DNA from: Pseudomonas sp. P7548
GTDB taxonomy: Bacteria > Pseudomonadota > Gammaproteobacteria > Pseudomonadales > Pseudomonadaceae
Assembly (NCBI RefSeq): GCF_013386585.1
Contig: NZ_JACARO010000002.1
Span: 124,001 to 188,000 of the forward strand
Direction: 5' to 3'
DNA length: 64,000 nt
Shown: positions 2,330 through 39,229 of the stretch, one piece after another
Layout of the letters: each line of letters starts with the position of its first letter
How positions within the stretch are numbered: position 1 is the first letter of the stretch
The notes under the pieces: model-generated
Database searches by the model: none
Seen by the model: the letters and a program-made list of their open reading frames with translations, nothing else
What the model was told of the DNA's origin: nothing
Translations under genes and position numbers: made by a program

Positions 2330-3289
2330 ATGAAACAGAAAAAAGCCCAATGGCCCTGGCACCTGCTGACCGTGGTCGTGCTGGTCGGCCTGGCTGGCGC
2401 CTTGTACTACGCCACGTCGCTGATGTCCTACGAGTGGCGCTGGAACCGCGTACCGCAGTACTTCGCCTATCAGGCTGAAACGTCCCAACGCGCGGCCGAC
2501 ATCTCCACAGTGGTTGAGCTGGTGCGCAAAGGCGATGTGGCTGAAGTCACCCTGCGCAACGACGCGGGCGCCGAGCAAAAGCTCACCGTTGCCGACAACA
2601 GCCTGCAAGTGGCACGCGGCGATGACGTGGCCGAAGGCGACGTGATCGGCGTGACCCGGCAGTGGGCGCTGGGGCCGTTGATGTGGGGTTTGTGGACCAC
2701 GCTGTGGTTGTCGGTGGTGTCCGGCATCCTGGGCCTGGTGATCGGCTTGGCGACCGGGCTGTGCCGCTTGTCCAGCAACCCCACCTTGCGCGATCTGTCG
2801 ACGATCTACGTCGAACTGGTGCGGGGTACGCCGCTGCTGGTGCAGATCTTCATTTTCTATTTCTTTATCGGCACGGTGCTCAACCTGTCCCGGGAGTTTG
2901 CCGGCATCGCGGCGCTGTCGCTGTTCACCGGTGCCTATGTGGCGGAAATCGTGCGGGCCGGCGTGCAGTCCATCACCCGTGGCCAGAACGAAGCTGCTCG
3001 TTCCCTGGGCCTGAGTGCCAGCCAGTCGATGCGCCATGTGGTGTTGCCGCAAGCCTTCAAACGCGTGTTGCCGCCCCTGGCCGGGCAATTTATCAGCCTG
3101 GTGAAGGACACCTCGCTGGTCTCGGTGATCGCGATTACCGAACTGCTCAAGAGCGGCCGCGAAGTGATCACCACCTCGTTTTCGCCGTTTGAAATCCTGT
3201 TCTGTGTGGCAGGCCTGTACCTGCTGATCAACCTGCCGCTGTCGAAAATGGCCAGCCGGCTTGAGCGGAGGCTCGCGCAAAGTGATTGA
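2330..3289 (+). CDS. Polar amino acid ABC transporter permease
   Basis: This is a 319-residue inner-membrane permease of the HisM/GlnP type. A first membrane segment (about residues 12-30) is followed by an unusual soluble insertion of about 80 residues. Four to five further membrane helices follow from about residue 115. The EAA cytoplasmic loop is clear ([20 protein letters not shown]). The reading frame ends TGA at 3287-3289, overlapping the start of the ATPase gene by 8 bases, which indicates coupled translation. The N-terminal insertion is larger than in minimal members of the family and may fold in the periplasm. Confidence 0.88.
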
Positions 3290-4016
3290 AGTCCGCGATC
3301 TGGTAAAAGTCTTCGACACCCGTGGGCAGGTGGTGCGCGCGGTGGACAACGTGAGCACCCAAGTGGCCAAGGGCGAAGTGCTGGTGGTGATCGGCCCGTC
3401 GGGTTCCGGTAAGTCCACGTTCCTGCGCTGCCTCAATGGCCTGGAGGAATTCGACTCGGGCTCGGTGAGCATCGACGGCCTGCAACTGGCCGACCCAAAG
3501 ACCGATGTGAATGCCTACCGCCGCGAAGTCGGCATGGTGTTCCAGCATTTCAACCTGTTCCCCCACATGACTGTGCTGGAAAACCTGTGCCTGGCCCAGA
3601 AGGTCGTGCGCAAGCGCAGCAAGAAAGAACGCGAAGCCAAGGCCCTGGCCCTGTTGGAAAAGGTCGGCATCGCACAGAAGGCCAACGAGTTTCCGTCGCG
3701 CCTCTCTGGCGGTCAGCAGCAACGGGTGGCCATTGCTCGGGCCCTGGCGATGGACCCCAAGGTGATGCTGTTTGACGAACCCACCTCGGCGCTGGACCCA
3801 GAAATGGTCGGCGAAGTCCTGGACGTGATGAAGACCCTGGCCCTGGAAGGCATGACCATGGTCTGCGTCACCCATGAAATGGGCTTTGCCCGCGAAGTGG
3901 CCGACCGGGTGCTGTTCTTCGACCATGGCAAGCTGCTCGAAGACGCCGCCCCGGCCGAGTTCTTCGACGCGCCGAAAGACCCTCGCGCCCAGGCATTTTT
4001 GCGCCAGGTGTTGTGA
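3282..4016 (+). CDS. Polar amino acid ABC transporter ATPase
   Basis: This is a 244-residue ATP-binding subunit that energises uptake through the permease. Walker A is GPSGSGKST (residues 38-46). The signature [14 protein letters not shown] and Walker [14 protein letters not shown] follow, with the switch region CVTHEMGF typical of the GlnQ/HisP branch. A GTG start at 3282 is chosen because GGAGG lies 10 bases upstream, it overlaps the permease stop, and it gives the usual MIEVRDL beginning. A TTG at 3261 would add seven residues. The gene ends only three bases before the convergent chemoreceptor gene. Confidence 0.9.
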
Positions 4017-32453: not shown

Positions 32454-34919
32454 TTAGAACAGGTCGATCGGCGCCGCTTCATCCGCTGGCAGCGGGCTGC
32501 CCGGTGCAACGCCATTGCCCAGCTCGTTGACCGACGGCGGCGTGTCTTCGCTCTTGAACAGTTCGAAGTACGCATTCGGCGTGCTCGGCGAGGCCGCGCG
32601 GCCGCTGATCGGGTCGATCCGCAGGCTGAGGATGCCTTCCGGCTCTGGCTGGGTGTGCAGCGGCTTGTCTTTGAGGGCTGCACCCATGTAGCTCATCCAG
32701 ATCGGCAGTGCCACGGTGCCACCAAACTCGCGGCGGCCCAGGCTTTCCGGCTGGTCGTAGCCGGTCCAGACGGTGGTTACGTAATCGGCGTTGTAGCCGG
32801 AGAACCAGGCATCTTTGGAGTCGTTCGTCGTACCGGTCTTGCCGGCGATGTCTGCACGGCCCAGGGCCAGTGCACGACGGCCGGTGCCTTTCTTGATCAC
32901 GTCCTCAAGGATGCTGTTGAGGATGTAGGTGGTACGGCCATCCACCACGCGTTCGGCAACCGCCGGCGCCTGGGGCTCGGCCGGTGCAGTGGTGCTTGCG
33001 GCGGGCGCTGCACCTGGTGTCGGTTCGATGGTGATGCCGCCGTGGCTTGGCGCTGCCAGGCCGTCGGTAGCGGCCACGCCGTTGACCACATCGCCTGGCA
33101 CCCGTGGAGGGTTGGCGGTGAACAGGGTTTCGCCGTTACGGCTTTCGACCTTATCGATCAGGTACGGCGAGATCTTGTAGCCGCCGTTGGCAAACGTACT
33201 CCAGCCCGTGGCGATTTCCATGGGCGTGAGGGTCGCGGTACCCAGGGCCAGGGACAGGTTCGGCGGCAGGTCCGACTTGTTGAAGCCAAAGCGCGTGATG
33301 TAGTCGATGGTCTTGCCGACACCCATGGCCTGCAGCAGGCGGATCGACACCAGGTTACGCGACTTGTACAGCGCTTCACGCACGCGGATCGGGCCGAGGA
33401 ACGTGTTGGTGTCGTTCTTCGGGCGCCAGACCTTGTCCAGGTATTCGTCGACGAACACGATCGGTGCATCGTTGACCAGGCTGGCGGCGGTGTAGCCGTT
33501 ATCCAGGGCCGCGCTGTAGATGAACGGCTTGAAGCTCGAGCCCGGCTGGCGCTTGGCCTGGGTGGCGCGGTTGTAGTTGCTCTGCTCGAAGGCAAAACCA
33601 CCGACCAGCGCGCGGATCGCACCGTTCTGCGGGTCCAGGGACACCAGCGCACCCTGGGCCAGCGGCACCTGGCTGAACTTCAGGCTGTCGTCCTTTTGGC
33701 GCTGCACGCGGATCAGGTCGCCCACTTGCGCGACGTCAGACGGCTGCTTGGGCATCGGGCCCATGCTGTTGGTGTTCAGGAAGGGGCGCGCCCACTTCAT
33801 GCTGTCCCAGCTCACATGGGCTTCGCCGGTGCGGGTCAGCACTTGCACGCCATCTTTCTTCACCTGGGTGACGATGGCAGGCTCCAGGCCGCTGATCGGG
33901 CGCTGCTTGCCCAGCTCGGTGGTCCAGGCGCTCAGGGTCTTGCCCGGCAGGCGCGACTCGGGGCCGCGGTAGCCGTGACGCTGGTCGTAGGTGATCAGCC
34001 CGGAATGCACCGAGTTGTTGGCGATTTCCTGCAGGTCGCTCGGCACCGTTGTGGTTACGCGGAAGCCTTCGGTGTAGGCATCGCTGCCATAGCGGCCGAC
34101 CATCTCGGCGCGGGCCATTTCAGCGATGTACGGCGCATTCACTTCCGGCGTCGGCACGTGGTAGCTGGCGTTCAGCGGTTCGGCCACGGCGCTTTCATAG
34201 GCGGCCTGGTCGATCTTGCCCAGCTTGTACATGCGCCCCAGGATCCAGTCGCGGCGCTCTTTGCTGCGCGCCGGGTTGGCCAGGGGGTTGAAGCGCGAAG
34301 GGGCCTTCGGCAGGCCGGCGATCATCGCCATTTGCGCCAGGCTGGCGTCACGGATGGACTTGCCGTAGTACACCTGGGACGCGGCTTCGATCCCGTAGGC
34401 GCGGTTGCCCAGGTAGATCTTGTTCACATACAGCTCAAGGATCTCGTCCTTGGTCAGCTGACGTTCGATTTGCAGGGCCAGCAGGATCTCGGTGGCCTTG
34501 CGCGAGAAGCTGCGCTCGCTGGTGAGGAAGAAGTTCTTCGCCACCTGCATGGTGATGGTGCTGCCCCCGGATTGAATGTGTCCGCTTTTTACCAACTGCG
34601 TGGCTGCACGCACCAGGCTGCTGGGGTCGACGCCGTAGTGGTTGGCGAAGTTATCGTCTTCGGCCGACAGTAAGGCGCTGATGAAATTGGGTGGAATATC
34701 GGCGAAACGGATCGGTGTGCGGCGCATTTCGCCGAACTCCGCGATCAGCTTTTCATCGCTGCTGTAGACCCGCAAAGGAATCTGCAACTGGATACTTCTG
34801 AGGGCCTCTACGGAGGGCAAACCCGGACTAAGGTAGAGGTAGGCACCGCTGAGCACGAGCAGCAGCCCGCAGACAATCGCGACAATGGAGTACCCGAAAA
34901 ACTTCAGCAGACGAATCAA
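32454..34919 (-). CDS. ponA: Penicillin-binding protein 1A (bifunctional transglycosylase/transpeptidase)
   Basis: This is an 821-residue class A penicillin-binding protein that polymerises and cross-links peptidoglycan. It has an N-terminal membrane anchor (about residues 9-30). The GT51 domain has EDDNF and GGSTITMQVAKN. An OB-like insert follows, then the transpeptidase with SSFK (SxxK), SRN and GKTGTTN. The C-terminal tail is Pro/Glu-rich. It is divergent from the pil operon, the conserved arrangement in Pseudomonas. Confidence 0.96.
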   Translation of the reverse strand: MIRLLKFFGYSIVAIVCGLLLVLSGAYLYLSPGLPSVEALRSIQLQIPLRVYSSDEKLIAEFGEMRRTPIRFADIPPNFISALLSAEDDNFANHYGVDPSSLVRAATQLVKSGHIQSGGSTITMQVAKNFFLTSERSFSRKATEILLALQIERQLTKDEILELYVNKIYLGNRAYGIEAASQVYYGKSIRDASLAQMAMIAGLPKAPSRFNPLANPARSKERRDWILGRMYKLGKIDQAAYESAVAEPLNASYHVPTPEVNAPYIAEMARAEMVGRYGSDAYTEGFRVTTTVPSDLQEIANNSVHSGLITYDQRHGYRGPESRLPGKTLSAWTTELGKQRPISGLEPAIVTQVKKDGVQVLTRTGEAHVSWDSMKWARPFLNTNSMGPMPKQPSDVAQVGDLIRVQRQKDDSLKFSQVPLAQGALVSLDPQNGAIRALVGGFAFEQSNYNRATQAKRQPGSSFKPFIYSAALDNGYTAASLVNDAPIVFVDEYLDKVWRPKNDTNTFLGPIRVREALYKSRNLVSIRLLQAMGVGKTIDYITRFGFNKSDLPPNLSLALGTATLTPMEIATGWSTFANGGYKISPYLIDKVESRNGETLFTANPPRVPGDVVNGVAATDGLAAPSHGGITIEPTPGAAPAASTTAPAEPQAPAVAERVVDGRTTYILNSILEDVIKKGTGRRALALGRADIAGKTGTTNDSKDAWFSGYNADYVTTVWTGYDQPESLGRREFGGTVALPIWMSYMGAALKDKPLHTQPEPEGILSLRIDPISGRAASPSTPNAYFELFKSEDTPPSVNELGNGVAPGSPLPADEAAPIDLF

Positions 34920-35138: not shown

Positions 35139-35792
35139 ATGAGAAAGGGATTTTTCAGGCGAAAAAACGACAGCGTCCTGGGCGTCGATATCAATGACGC
35201 GGGGATCAAGCTGGTTGAGTTGGGCCGTTCAGGCAGTGTGTATACGGTGCAGGGCTATGCCACCCAGGCGCTGGCGGCCCATGCGGTGGTTGATGGCACG
35301 CTGCTGGACCTCGAGGCAGTCGGGCACGCCTTGCACGAGGCGGTGTCCCGGTCGCTGGCCTCCACACGGCTGGCGGCGGTTGCCGTTGCCGGGCCTTCAG
35401 TCATTACGCGCGTGATCGAGCTGGAGGCGGGGCTCAGCGACGAAGAAATGGCTTGGCGCATCCAGATGGAGGCCGACCAGTACATTCCTTACCCGCTGGA
35501 TGAGGTGGCCATCGACTTTCAGGTCAAGGGACCTTCGCCCCAGGACCCTGCCCGGGTCGAGGTGCTGCTGGCCGCCTGTCTCAGGGAACAAGTCGAAGCG
35601 CGCGCAACGGTTTTGACCCGCGCCGGCCTCGTGGCACAGGTGGTGGACGTCGAAGGGTTTGCATTGGAGCGCGCTTGCAGTCAGGATTTCGCCAGCTTCA
35701 CGCCGGGCCATCGAGTCGATGGCGCACAATGGGCCGTGGATGCCCAAGGGATGGGAATTGCTTGCGGGTTGGCCCTGAGGAGTTTTGCTTGA
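35139..35792 (+). CDS. pilM: Type IV pilus assembly ATPase-like protein PilM with large internal deletion
   Basis: PilM is the cytoplasmic actin-like protein that binds the tail of PilN. This frame encodes only 217 residues, against 354 in P. aeruginosa. Residues 11-180 align with the normal N-terminal half (VLGVDINDAGIKLVEL, EADQYIPYPLDEVAIDF, VLLAAC, VVDVEGFALERA). The last residues, GIACGLALRSFA, match the normal C-terminus. About 130 residues between them, holding the second nucleotide-binding subdomain, are missing in frame near residues 180-203. ATG at 35139 follows GGGAG. The stop overlaps the pilN start (TGATG). It may be a minimal scaffold or a decaying gene. Confidence 0.8.
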   Translation: MRKGFFRRKNDSVLGVDINDAGIKLVELGRSGSVYTVQGYATQALAAHAVVDGTLLDLEAVGHALHEAVSRSLASTRLAAVAVAGPSVITRVIELEAGLSDEEMAWRIQMEADQYIPYPLDEVAIDFQVKGPSPQDPARVEVLLAACLREQVEARATVLTRAGLVAQVVDVEGFALERACSQDFASFTPGHRVDGAQWAVDAQGMGIACGLALRSFA

Positions 35793-36343
35793 TGACACGC
35801 ATCAACCTTTTGCCTTGGCGCCAGGCGCTGGAGCAGCGCAAGCGCAAATACTTTCTGATGTTTTTGCTGGCGTTCGGCTGTGCCGCACTCGCAGCGGTGT
35901 GGCTGGCAGACCAGGTGATCGATCAGGCCATCGACCGACAAGTGGCGCGCAACAGCCATTTGAACAAGGAAGTGGCTGTCGTCGACGCGCGCATCAAGAC
36001 CATCGACAGCCTGCAGGAGCAGAGCCAGCAATTGGCTGAGCGGATGAAAGTCGTGCAAGACCTGCATGATGCCCGCTCCTCCAGCACCCAGATGTTTGAT
36101 CAACTGGCCCGCGCAGTGCCCGAGGGCGTACACCTGCACGAAGTAGTGGCCAACGGCGACACGATCAGCGTCAGCGGCAGCGCGGAGTCCAGCCAGGACA
36201 TCGCTCAACTGATGCGGCGCCTGGAGGCTTCGCAAGGTACCCACGCCACGCAGTTGCAGCATGTGCGTGCGGAGGGCGGGCGCGGAAACAACGAGTTTCA
36301 ATTGATGGTGCGCCAGGGCGAGTCCACCGAGGCCCAGCCTTGA
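35792..36343 (+). CDS. pilN: Type IV pilus assembly protein PilN
   Basis: This 183-residue inner-membrane protein has the conserved cytoplasmic tail TRINLLPWR that binds PilM, one membrane helix (about residues 21-42), a periplasmic coiled coil and a ferredoxin-like domain. It is slightly shorter than the 198 residues of P. aeruginosa PilN but has all regions. The ATG overlaps the pilM stop by one base, and the pilN stop overlaps the next start by four bases (TTGA). Confidence 0.9.
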   Translation: MTRINLLPWRQALEQRKRKYFLMFLLAFGCAALAAVWLADQVIDQAIDRQVARNSHLNKEVAVVDARIKTIDSLQEQSQQLAERMKVVQDLHDARSSSTQMFDQLARAVPEGVHLHEVVANGDTISVSGSAESSQDIAQLMRRLEASQGTHATQLQHVRAEGGRGNNEFQLMVRQGESTEAQP

Positions 36344-37311
36344 GCCTGCCCAGGCTCGACTTATCCACACTCTCTCACAACGCTACCCAATGGCCCCTGC
36401 CGGGTAAGGCCCTGTTGGGCTGCGCGCTCGCAGGCGTGGTGTTGTGGGTGGGTGATGGATTGGTCATGGGCCCATCCCGTGAGCAGTTGAAGGCGGCTGA
36501 GGTGCGTGAAGTTGCCCTGCGCCAGGTGCTTGAGCAAAAGGCCGGCGTTGCTTCCAGCCTCGAAGACCGCGCGCGTCAGGTTCAATTGATGCAGGACACG
36601 GTGTCGGGGCTGTTGCGGCAGTTGCCTGGTGTGTCCGATGTGCTTGGTTTGTTGGATGACATCGCGCGTCTGGCGGCGACCAATGATCTGGTGGTTGAGG
36701 ACGTCACCGTACTGGATGCAGAGGCTGGTTCGCTCTATGTCGCGGAACCGTTGCAGCTCGGTATTTTTGGCGCGTATCACAACCTCGCTGCCTTCGTCAG
36801 CGCCTTGGGTGGCCTGTCGAGGATCGTCACTGTGCAGGATGTAGCGCTTCGCCGGGACGGCTCGATGTTGCGCCTCGATCTACTGGTAAAGGCCTATCGC
36901 AGCTCATCACCGCATGCTCGGCCCGGCCTGCCGGTCGCGCCGCAAGAGCGGTTTGTCTACGCGGCGGCTTCTCTGCGTGACCCCTTTCAGTCGGCGGTGT
37001 CGCCTAGCGATTATCTGCCTGGTCGGCGGGCACCCGCACCGGACCTGACCCGTGCCCGTGGAGTGCTGGAGGGGTTGGCAGTCGACCGGTTCGAAATGGT
37101 CGGCACGCTGTCCCGTGGCAGGCAAACCTTCGCCTTGCTGCGTGCGGCGTCGAAGGTGCATCGGCTGGCGGTCGGCGACTACCTGGGCCCCAACCATGGC
37201 CGGGTGACCGCCATTACGTCGGGTCATGTGGAGCTCGCCGAGCTGTTTCCCGATGAACAGGGTGCCTGGCTAGAGCGCTCGCGAACCCTCTTGTTAAACG
37301 TCAACTCATAA
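36340..37311 (+). CDS. PilO-PilP fusion protein
   Basis: One uninterrupted frame of 323 residues joins two proteins that are normally separate. Residues 1-187 are PilO-like: membrane helix about 22-44, coiled coil, then the ferredoxin-like fold with LRQLPGVSDVLGLLDDI and GAYHNLAAFVSALGGLSRIV. Residues 204-323 are the PilP beta-domain: FVYAAASLRDPFQ, FEMVGTLS, VGDYLGPNHGRV and GAWLERSRTL. The PilP signal peptide and lipid-attachment cysteine are absent, so the PilP part is tethered through the PilO helix. The start is TTG, overlapping the pilN stop. PilP normally links PilNO to the secretin PilQ. Confidence 0.85.
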   Translation: MSLPRLDLSTLSHNATQWPLPGKALLGCALAGVVLWVGDGLVMGPSREQLKAAEVREVALRQVLEQKAGVASSLEDRARQVQLMQDTVSGLLRQLPGVSDVLGLLDDIARLAATNDLVVEDVTVLDAEAGSLYVAEPLQLGIFGAYHNLAAFVSALGGLSRIVTVQDVALRRDGSMLRLDLLVKAYRSSSPHARPGLPVAPQERFVYAAASLRDPFQSAVSPSDYLPGRRAPAPDLTRARGVLEGLAVDRFEMVGTLSRGRQTFALLRAASKVHRLAVGDYLGPNHGRVTAITSGHVELAELFPDEQGAWLERSRTLLLNVNS

Positions 37312-37323
37312 CGGAATCAACCA

Positions 37324-38706
37324 ATGAAAAGGACTTTCTCGTCCTTCGGTGTGGCGCTATGGATAGCGTTCACAGCACCGATGGCTTTCGCTGTGCCCAA
37401 TCGCGTGGATTTGATCCAGCTGCCGCCACCTGTCAGTGCGCCTCTGAGCACTTATACCGGTGACAAGTTGAGCCTGAATTTCCAGAACATCGAGCTGCGC
37501 GCCGTGTTGCAGCAAATTGCCGACGTGGCCGGCTTGAACCTGGTGGCCAGCGATGAGGTGCAGGGCTCAATCACGTTGAGGCTCAAGGACGTGCCGTGGG
37601 ATCAGGCGCTGGACCTGGTGTTGCAAAGCAAGGGTTTGGATAAGCGAGTGAAGGCGGGGGTGTTACTGGTGGCGCCTGCCGAAGAGCTCGCCGCCCGCGA
37701 ACTGCTGGTACTGGAGTCGCGCAAGCAGATCGCCGAACTGGCGCCTTTGCGTCGCGAGTTGTTGCAGGTCAACTACGCCAAGGCGGCCGACCTGGCCAAG
37801 TTGTTCCAGTCGGTGAGCGGCCTGGACGGCGCCACGGATGAACGAGGCTCGGTGGCTGTTGATGATCGCACCAACAACATCATTGCCTATCAGACCGGCG
37901 AGCGGCTCGACGAGCTGCGGCGCATCGTGGCGCAGTTGGATGTGCCGGTGCGCCAGGTGATGATCGAGGCGCGAATCGTCGAGGCCAATGTCGATTACGA
38001 CAAAAGCCTGGGCGTGCGCTGGGGCGGGCGGCTGAACCGAGGCAATTGGAACGCGGGGGGCATCGACAAGCCGTTGGCCGAAGGCGCCGAGTTGCCGGAA
38101 AGCCCGCCCAGTTCGCCGTTTGTCGATTTAGGCTCGCTGACGGGGACTTCAGGCCTTGGCCTCGCCTTTATCACCGACAACCTGTTGCTGGACCTTGAGC
38201 TGACCGCCATGGAAAAAACCGGTAATGGCGAAATCGTCTCGCAGCCCAAGGTGGTGACGTCCGACAAGGAAACCGCGCGAATCCTCAAGGGCACCGAAAT
38301 TCCCTACCAGGAGTCCAGTTCCAGCGGCGCCACCTCGGTGTCCTTCAAGGAGGCCTCGCTGTCGCTGGAGGTGACCCCGCAAATCACCCCCGACGACCGC
38401 GTGATCATGGAGGTCAAGGTCACCAAGGACGAGCCCGACTACCTGAACAAACTCAACGATGTGCCGCCGATCAAGAAAAACGAGGTCAACGCCAAGGTGC
38501 TGGTCAAAGATGGCGAGACCATCGTCATCGGCGGGGTTTTCTCCAATACCCAAAGCAAAGTGGTAGATAAGGTGCCATTTTTGGGCGATGTGCCGTATCT
38601 TGGCCGCCTTTTCCGGCGCGATGTGCTGGCGGAGAAAAAATCCGAGCTGCTGGTATTCCTGACTCCGCGTATTATGAATAACCAGGCGATTGCTGTGAGT
38701 CGTTGA
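37324..38706 (+). CDS. pilQ: Short PilQ-type secretin without AMIN domains
   Basis: This 460-residue outer-membrane secretin compares with 714 residues for P. aeruginosa PilQ. A signal peptide (about residues 1-23) and some 20 linker residues lead straight into the secretin N0 domain ([20 protein letters not shown]). The N1 domain and a complete secretin core follow ([48 protein letters not shown]). The two peptidoglycan-binding AMIN domains are missing. In size it resembles HofQ/ComE secretins of DNA uptake, although the retained sequence is PilQ-like. It lies 12 bases after the fusion gene. Confidence 0.9.
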
Positions 38707-38710
38707 TTCT

Positions 38711-39229
38711 GTGCGAAATTTGATTCTTGTAGGACCGATGGGGGCTGGAAAAAGCACCATCGGCCGTTTGCTGGCCAAAGAGCTGCGCCTGCCGTTCAAA
38801 GATTCCGACAAGGAAATTGAATTGCGCACGGGTGCCAATATCCCTTGGATCTTCGATAAGGAAGGCGAGCTGGGCTTTCGCGACCGCGAGCAGGCGATGA
38901 TTGCCGAGCTGTGCGGCTGCGACGGCGTGGTATTGGCTACCGGCGGCGGTGCGGTGATGCGCGATGAAAACCGTCGTGCGCTGCATGCCGGTGGTCGGGT
39001 GGTCTATCTGCATGCGTCGGTCGAGCAGCAGGTGGGCCGCACCGCCCGCGATCGCAATCGCCCGTTGCTGCGCACAGCTGACCCGGCAAAAACCTTGCGG
39101 GACCTGCTGACGCTGCGCGACCCGCTTTATCGGGAGATCGCCGATCTGGTGGTGGAAACCGATGAGCGGCCGCCTCGAATGGTCGTCCTCGACATTCTGG
39201 AGCGCTTGCAGCAGTTGCCACCCCGTTAA
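38711..39229 (+). CDS. aroK: Shikimate kinase AroK
   Basis: This 172-residue enzyme phosphorylates shikimate in the aromatic amino acid pathway. Walker A is GPMGAGKST. The shikimate-binding DSD (KDSDKEIE), ATGGGAV and the lid RDRNRPLL are conserved. The GTG start at 38711 is four bases after the pilQ stop, so it is cotranscribed with the pil genes, as in other gammaproteobacteria. This cotranscription may explain why the pil frames are kept open. Confidence 0.96.

Follow-up and report, generated by a model that had tools for sequence, protein, structure and literature searches.

A shortened type IV pilus alignment operon in Pseudomonas, conserved as part of an ordered simplification that accompanies the absence of PilB

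What keeps a type IV pilus alignment operon open in every frame once large parts of it have gone? The question is raised by the pilMNOPQ operon at positions 35,139 to 38,706 of a 64,000-nucleotide stretch of DNA from Pseudomonas sp. P7548 (assembly GCF_013386585.1, contig NZ_JACARO010000002.1, positions 124,001 to 188,000; the window). A sequence-only reading had described the operon as shortened but standing in its usual place, and this was borne out in its coordinates, protein lengths, fused PilO/P and gene overlaps. Our results indicate that the operon is a conserved part of a repeated, ordered simplification accompanying the absence of PilB. It is a known machine in reduced form, i.e. a variant of PilMNOPQ and not a new machine.

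The PilM, PilN, PilO and PilP domains are all recognized by Pfam, in operon order ahead of pilQ. When aligned to the solved PilM chain of P. aeruginosa, the PilM of the window joins chain positions 6-182 to 321-356, positions 183-320 being missing, and the Pfam PilM profile is matched only up to 167 of its 340 positions; thus, the deletion has taken out the second domain and spared the PilN-clamp domain. The kept part is 50% identical to P. aeruginosa PilM. By profile and alignment alike, the protein lacks a complete two-domain actin-like nucleotide site (the domain limits and the roles of the actin-family motifs being those generally recognized). PilM is indeed shortened, as the sequence-only reading had it, not by truncation of its end but by an internal deletion, with the closing C-terminal helix still in place; the fold that remains is predicted with confidence. 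Such a PilM would act as a PilN clamp without a nucleotide site. Passages of PMC6325625 place the PilN channel between the PilM subdomains. Twenty-eight PilM columns are invariant across 38 short and full-length rows. The sequence-only reading had allowed for full-length pil genes elsewhere in the genome; for PilM no second copy was found there, the genome holding one PilM match only.

PilQ matches the STN, Secretin_N and Secretin families, and the Pfam scan gave no match to the peptidoglycan-binding AMIN domain at E 0.001. In an alignment to the solved PilQ 9x0w, a protein of 714 amino acids that we take to be that of P. aeruginosa, its residues 43-460 correspond to residues 278-714. It passes the NCBIfam model IV_pilus_PilQ (TIGR02515) with 508 bits against a cut-off of 284 bits, over profile positions 1-428, and misses the cut-offs of the HofQ models PRK13568 and PRK10560 (295 against 554 and 247 against 598 bits), so that the operon is not a Hof module and its earlier placement closer to Hof/Com secretin modules is not supported. 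A second PilQ-type operon elsewhere in the genome was considered and rejected: there is the single PilM match, and one of the six secretin matches is this PilQ, the other five standing without a family scan. Two further secretin genes (G000:C235:122821-123297 and G000:C19:10065-10550, in open frames of 759 and 496 amino acids) come besides the secretins that adjoin GspF-like and Tad-like genes.

The PilO/P frame matches Pfam PilO (88 bits, residues 50-187) and PilP (110 bits, residues 189-319), and aligns to the solved PilO 2rjz and PilP 2lc4; its predicted structure was poor (predicted local distance difference test score 53.6, 15 rows) and was set aside.

The same short form is found in 15 (L005-L019) of the best 80 named relatives, taken from at least 581 matches, with PilQ identity of 90-93%; the species include P. 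edaphica, P. yamanorum, P. cedrina, P. pisciculturae, P. grimontii, P. costantinii, P. canadensis, P. salomonii and P. poae. Together with 13 further genomes and the window these make 29 clade rows, some possibly of the same species, and in 28 of them all four genes each occupy one open frame. The form of the operon is therefore neither chance nor sequencing error. The exception is the short-type PilM of P. cedrina subsp. fulgida LMG 21467 (L008:2161-2807), which lies in three frames, either truly or by assembly error. Other named relatives carry intermediate forms: P. protegens has a full-length PilM with an AMIN-less PilQ, P. fragi, P. helleri and P. endophytica have a partly trimmed PilM with an AMIN-less PilQ, and P. 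akapageensis retains about half of the AMIN region.

The sequence-only reading had proposed to measure the ratio of nonsynonymous to synonymous substitution rates (dN/dS, omega) across relatives with the same deletions. By the Nei-Gojobori method, the median pairwise omega in the short clade is 0.230 for PilM (15 rows) and, over 16 rows each, 0.126 for PilN, 0.259 for PilOP, 0.085 for the secretin part of PilQ, and 0.041 for both AroK and AroB; no pilus gene is near 1. The corresponding values in a full-length clade of 16 genomes are 0.049 and 0.039 for PilM domains 1 and 2 (14 rows), 0.075 for PilN, 0.085 for PilO, 0.098 for PilP, 0.020 for the secretin part of PilQ, 0.130 for the AMIN region and 0.043 for AroK. 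The PilM of L008 and two of the 16 full-length PilM rows, which carry indels, were left out. Because both clades include several genes with a median dS of about 1, these pairwise medians, obtained with no formal relaxation test, serve as comparisons and not as exact figures. The short proteins are under purifying selection, though less so than in full-length operons, and this, together with the conservation across the clade, argues against unconstrained decay.

PilN residues 2-10 (TRINLLPWR) are invariant in 16 of 16 clade rows. At the pilM-pilN junction, four of these rows (L010, L013, L008 and L019) have AAG in place of the pilN ATG; in all four the preceding codon is a TTG that overlaps the pilM stop, and the two genes therefore still overlap. 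In the window, the overlaps between genes are TGATG at 35790-35794 (pilM/pilN) and TTGA at 36340-36343 (pilN/pilOP). The operon sits between a divergent frame and aroK-aroB (Table 1), which we take to be its placement in P. aeruginosa as well; the divergent frame is presumably ponA, as the sequence-only reading named it. Among the best 80 named relatives, 79 have aroK behind pilQ; the exception (L024) is a short contig.

Table 1. Features of the pilMNOPQ locus, in positions of the window
Feature	Position	Strand	Description
pilM	35139..35792	+	217 amino acids; PilN-clamp domain and C-terminal helix, second domain deleted
pilN	35792..36343	+	183 amino acids; Pfam PilN match; N-terminal motif TRINLLPWR
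pilOP	36340..37311	+	single frame of 323 amino acids; PilO, then PilP homology region, without PilP lipoprotein leader
pilQ	37324..38706	+	460 amino acids; leader, N0, N1, secretin; AMIN domains lacking
aroK	38711..39229	+	downstream neighbour; NCBIfam AroK; control for selection and tree
ponA (presumed)	32454..34919	-	divergent upstream neighbour; open frame of 821 amino acids

The link to PilB emerged from 298 Pseudomonas genomes drawn evenly from the genus. PilM was matched in 296 of them, in full in 181 and with a low score (weaker than 1e-130) in 115, two genomes being without a match. Canonical PilB exceeded its NCBIfam cut-off in 167 genomes: 167 of the 181 with a full PilM versus none of the 115 with a low-scoring one. 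The remaining 131 are PilB-less in the sense that no match passes that cut-off, with G034 and G177 giving intermediate scores and G075 being 87% complete. Eighty of the low-scoring PilMs were re-inspected and proved to be trimmed, diverged or (two) split over frames; in the PilB-less G080 and G243 PilM is split over two frames. PilY1 was matched in 163 of 167 PilB-positive versus 8 of 131 PilB-less genomes. A TfpB-like match stronger than 1e-180, a line that we drew ourselves, is present in 129 of the 131 PilB-less genomes, the median TfpB match being 1e-243 there versus 1e-289 in PilB-positive genomes.

We read 101 operons from this survey, 55 from PilB-less and 46 from PilB-positive genomes. 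Forty of the latter were picked from the best-scoring PilMs and therefore lean to an intact PilM, a bias that the 298-genome table does not share. All 46 PilB-positive operons are intact. Six of the PilB-less operons are otherwise intact (these include G243, with PilM in two frames, and G034, with its intermediate PilB score), 9 are reduced in AMIN only, 10 also in PilM domain 2, and 30 (14 fluorescens-type and 16 putida-type) additionally have PilO and PilP fused; no other combination of the four changes occurs among the 101. The labels putida-type and fragi-type follow tree position and what we presume of these groups. The changes thus nest in every operon read: PilB is absent, then AMIN is lost, then PilM domain 2, and then PilO and PilP are fused. 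The sequence-only reading spoke of three coordinated reductions; the shortenings are real, whereas the operons read and the tree point to a stepwise rather than a joint origin.

On the aroK-aroB tree, from which L024 was left out, the minimum numbers of changes are 8 for PilB, 6 for AMIN, 4 for domain 2 and 2 for the fusion, counts that do not separate gain from loss. Within the window's 16-row clade, the members in which PilO and PilP are separate (L120 and L193) are already without domain 2 and AMIN, which suggests that in this clade both were lost before the fusion. L119 (G106), too, has a PilM without domain 2, in a fragi-type clade where each of the other PilMs read is trimmed only in part; this domain was therefore probably deleted on more than one occasion. 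In a putida-type relative (L124, genome G007, 2516-3808) PilM and PilN share one open frame, so that PilM may be fused to PilN in this genome as well as PilO to PilP.

What remains of the pilus machine in the genome of the window? The sequence-only reading had asked after pilA, pilB, pilC, pilD and comEC. All but a canonical pilB were found, comEC as a ComEC domain in a frame of 745 amino acids. The genes for PilA (Pfam Pilin domain), PilC (T2SSF) and PilD (A24) form one group on contig 235, in which pilB is missing between pilA and pilC, and the best match to the PilB model TIGR02538 in this genome (1.1e-163) is below the cut-off. Minor pilin genes lie near 70-72 kb of the same contig, where the PilX-like gene and the next one, PilE by position, adjoin without PilY1 between them; PilY1 had no match in the genome. 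The four PF00437 ATPases comprise one by GspF- and pseudopilin-like genes, one by a Tad-like set (both placed by their neighbours and by what we presume of such sets), PilT on contig 53 (TIGR01420, pilT_fam, 480 bits) and a TfpB-like protein; PilU is not among them. Major pilin, platform PilC, prepilin peptidase and retraction ATPase are thus all present, and their retention along with the minor pilins indicates a type IVa pilus system, not a bare channel. A neighbour of pilA (L105:5024-6433) codes for a Wzy_C (O-antigen ligase) protein, which might be a pilin glycosyltransferase.

The TfpB-like protein is an ATPase of 561 amino acids encoded on contig 53, whose best family among 18 from NCBIfam is TfpB NF053534 (827.5 bits, PilB reaching 499 bits). 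It carries Walker A, Walker B and paired CxxC motifs, and among 8000 homologues scored, the best 120 listed have an identity of at least 87%. Five clade-type TfpBs compared with a PilB-positive reference are 61-64% identical in the N-terminal part, 57-64% in the C-terminal zinc part and 85-88% in the core. Co-evolution of a PilM-docking domain in TfpB was considered, and no conclusion could be drawn, as the N-terminal part is among the most variable in five PilB-positive genomes too (74-96%). The TfpB-like ATPase (L107:4290-5975) also matches the Pfam domain MshEN (52 bits), which binds cyclic di-GMP in other motors, and by analogy this motor may be under such control.

Based on these observations, we suggest, with a probability of roughly 0.6, that the operon is a shortened type IVa alignment complex driven by TfpB and serving a functional TfpB-only pilus. 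TfpB is the likely driver because canonical PilB was not found in the genome, and as shortening occurs, in the genomes compared, only where PilB is absent, the machine probably runs on this second motor. According to passages of PMC8213720, TfpB can extend the pili of A. baylyi when PilB is missing, and it is the only one of the two motors in P. fluorescens A506, its role as sole motor being raised there as a possibility. PilM is described in part of PMC11656802 as forming the socket where PilB docks, limiting PilB strokes, and sections of PMC5285504 report that the AMIN domains of PilQ bind peptidoglycan and position the complex, and that PilP connects PilNO to PilQ via its N terminus and homology region.

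In the proposed sequence of events, PilB would have been lost first, mostly together with PilY1, after which the AMIN anchors, PilM domain 2 and a separate PilP would have been freed in turn. Once PilB had gone, neither the nucleotide half of the stator nor the wall anchors that bear force would have been needed, and in-frame deletions would have removed both. TfpB would extend the pilus on PilC inside a stator made of the PilN-clamp half of PilM, and with this half alone the stator could presumably no longer bind ATP. The covalent PilO-PilP link would substitute for the leader, and hence the lipid anchor, of PilP, the secretin would no longer be tethered to peptidoglycan, and PilT would still retract. 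The outcome would be a low-force, non-twitching pilus, whose use, if we may guess, could be DNA uptake or adhesion. The predicted absence of twitching agrees with one P. fluorescens strain, although that strain may make no pili.

Several results weigh against a TfpB-driven pilus. Compared with the full-length clade, the short clade has its omega raised by a factor of about 1.7 to 4.7, while the AroK control is unmoved; of the earlier claim of selection for a compact channel, purifying selection stands, whereas the raised omega speaks against strong selection for compactness as such. The TfpB-like protein of this genome (827 bits) is itself under the family cut-off of 850 bits, the best-listed TfpBs of the genus scoring 955-974 bits, and across the survey 206 of 298 genomes pass this cut-off and 92 fail; judged by E-value, all but about three of the failures are PilB-less, so the retained motor has diverged. 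Six independent pairs on the tree contain none that contradicts the link to PilB, but only 3-4 agree for AMIN (p 0.125-0.25) and 1-3 for domain 2 (p 0.25-1), which is not significant. The putida-type PilM open frames span 287-431 amino acids, so domain 2 has diverged there and was not cleanly removed. An engineered AMIN-less PilQ of P. aeruginosa formed stable oligomers and was non-functional, according to passages of PMC5285504, and passages of PMC6713353 describe P. fluorescens C7R12 (compared here on its species name) as non-twitching and probably without type IV pili under the conditions used.

Much of this evidence is shared by the main rival of the TfpB-driven pilus, a slow, ordered decay in which the pilus was impaired after the loss of PilB and the operon was whittled down by in-frame deletions under residual constraint. 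The raised omega in PilM, PilN, PilOP and PilQ, the broken PilM frames in one of 15 named relatives and in G080 and G243, the missing PilY1 and PilU, the divergence of TfpB in many PilB-less genomes and the non-twitching C7R12 would all be expected of it. We nevertheless consider it unlikely, though by far the strongest of the alternatives. Omega is far under 1 in every gene, the frames of 28 of 29 rows are open, the PilN motif is unchanged, the PilM deletion spares the C-terminal helix of a confidently predicted fold, the 120 best TfpB homologues listed remain at least 87% identical, and comparable reductions arose several times with the locus retained.

A second alternative is that the operon was rebuilt into a DNA-uptake machine of Com/Hof type, with no surface pilus for other uses. 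The AMIN-less PilQ does resemble HofQ in domain content, the solved HofQ part 2y3m matching it weakly (46 bits), and a ComEC domain is present. However, PilQ belongs by its scores to the pilus family and not to HofQ, and a major pilin with a Pilin domain, PilT and minor pilins are retained; the ComEC domain, found also in 10 of 14 control genomes, says little. We regard this explanation as improbable. A further alternative, that the frames stay open only to spare aroK the polar effect of stops and that the proteins are idle, is suggested by the 4-base gap and the nearly constant position of aroK behind pilQ, but predicts an omega of about 1 instead of 0.09-0.26 and leaves the 28 invariant PilM columns unexplained, which makes it hardly credible.

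How does the shortened operon compare with known systems? It shares with P. aeruginosa PilMNOPQ the gene order and retained domains that align (PilQ over N0-N1-secretin), and differs in lacking PilM domain 2, AMIN and the PilP leader and in having PilO and PilP as one protein; in addition, PilB, PilU and PilY1 were not found in the genome. HofMNOPQ of E. coli and ComA-E of Haemophilus, DNA-uptake sets that include a short PilM-like protein, likewise have an AMIN-less secretin, whereas the operon of the window is connected by the intermediate forms in relatives to full-length Pseudomonas genes. In A. baylyi, as in the window's genome, an extension ATPase of the TfpB class is encoded apart from pilC, but A. 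baylyi has both PilB and TfpB, where here the TfpB-like protein stands alone; the passages of PMC8213720 consulted do not mention a shortened alignment complex. The engineered PilQ without AMIN also consists of N0-N1-secretin only; it is delocalised and non-functional in P. aeruginosa, according to passages of PMC5285504, while the AMIN-less PilQ of the window is natural and kept across a clade. Titles and abstracts of the open literature searched give no account of a fused PilO-PilP, a truncated PilM or an AMIN-less PilQ of this kind, and those listed for pilus genes of P. fluorescens or P. putida do not describe this form of the operon; passages of PMC9210963 do not describe it either.

A wider generalisation, which we offer tentatively and at somewhat less than even odds, is that PilB, PilY1, the AMIN anchors and PilM domain 2 constitute one dispensable force-and-anchoring module, while TfpB runs on a core of PilN-clamp, PilO-PilP and secretin. 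The module would have been dismantled several times in the same order in Pseudomonas, and the minimal pili left with TfpB only would form a class of their own. According to passages of PMC8213720, data were needed in 2021 on TfpB as a sole motor.

The nucleotide-binding half of PilM was deleted or altered on more than one occasion, in the examined genomes only without PilB, which poses the question of whether PilM domain 2 is a PilB-specific stator. For the P. fluorescens and P. putida groups, it follows that the annotation 'PilMNOPQ type IV pilus' should not be taken to mean a pilus that twitches like that of P. aeruginosa.

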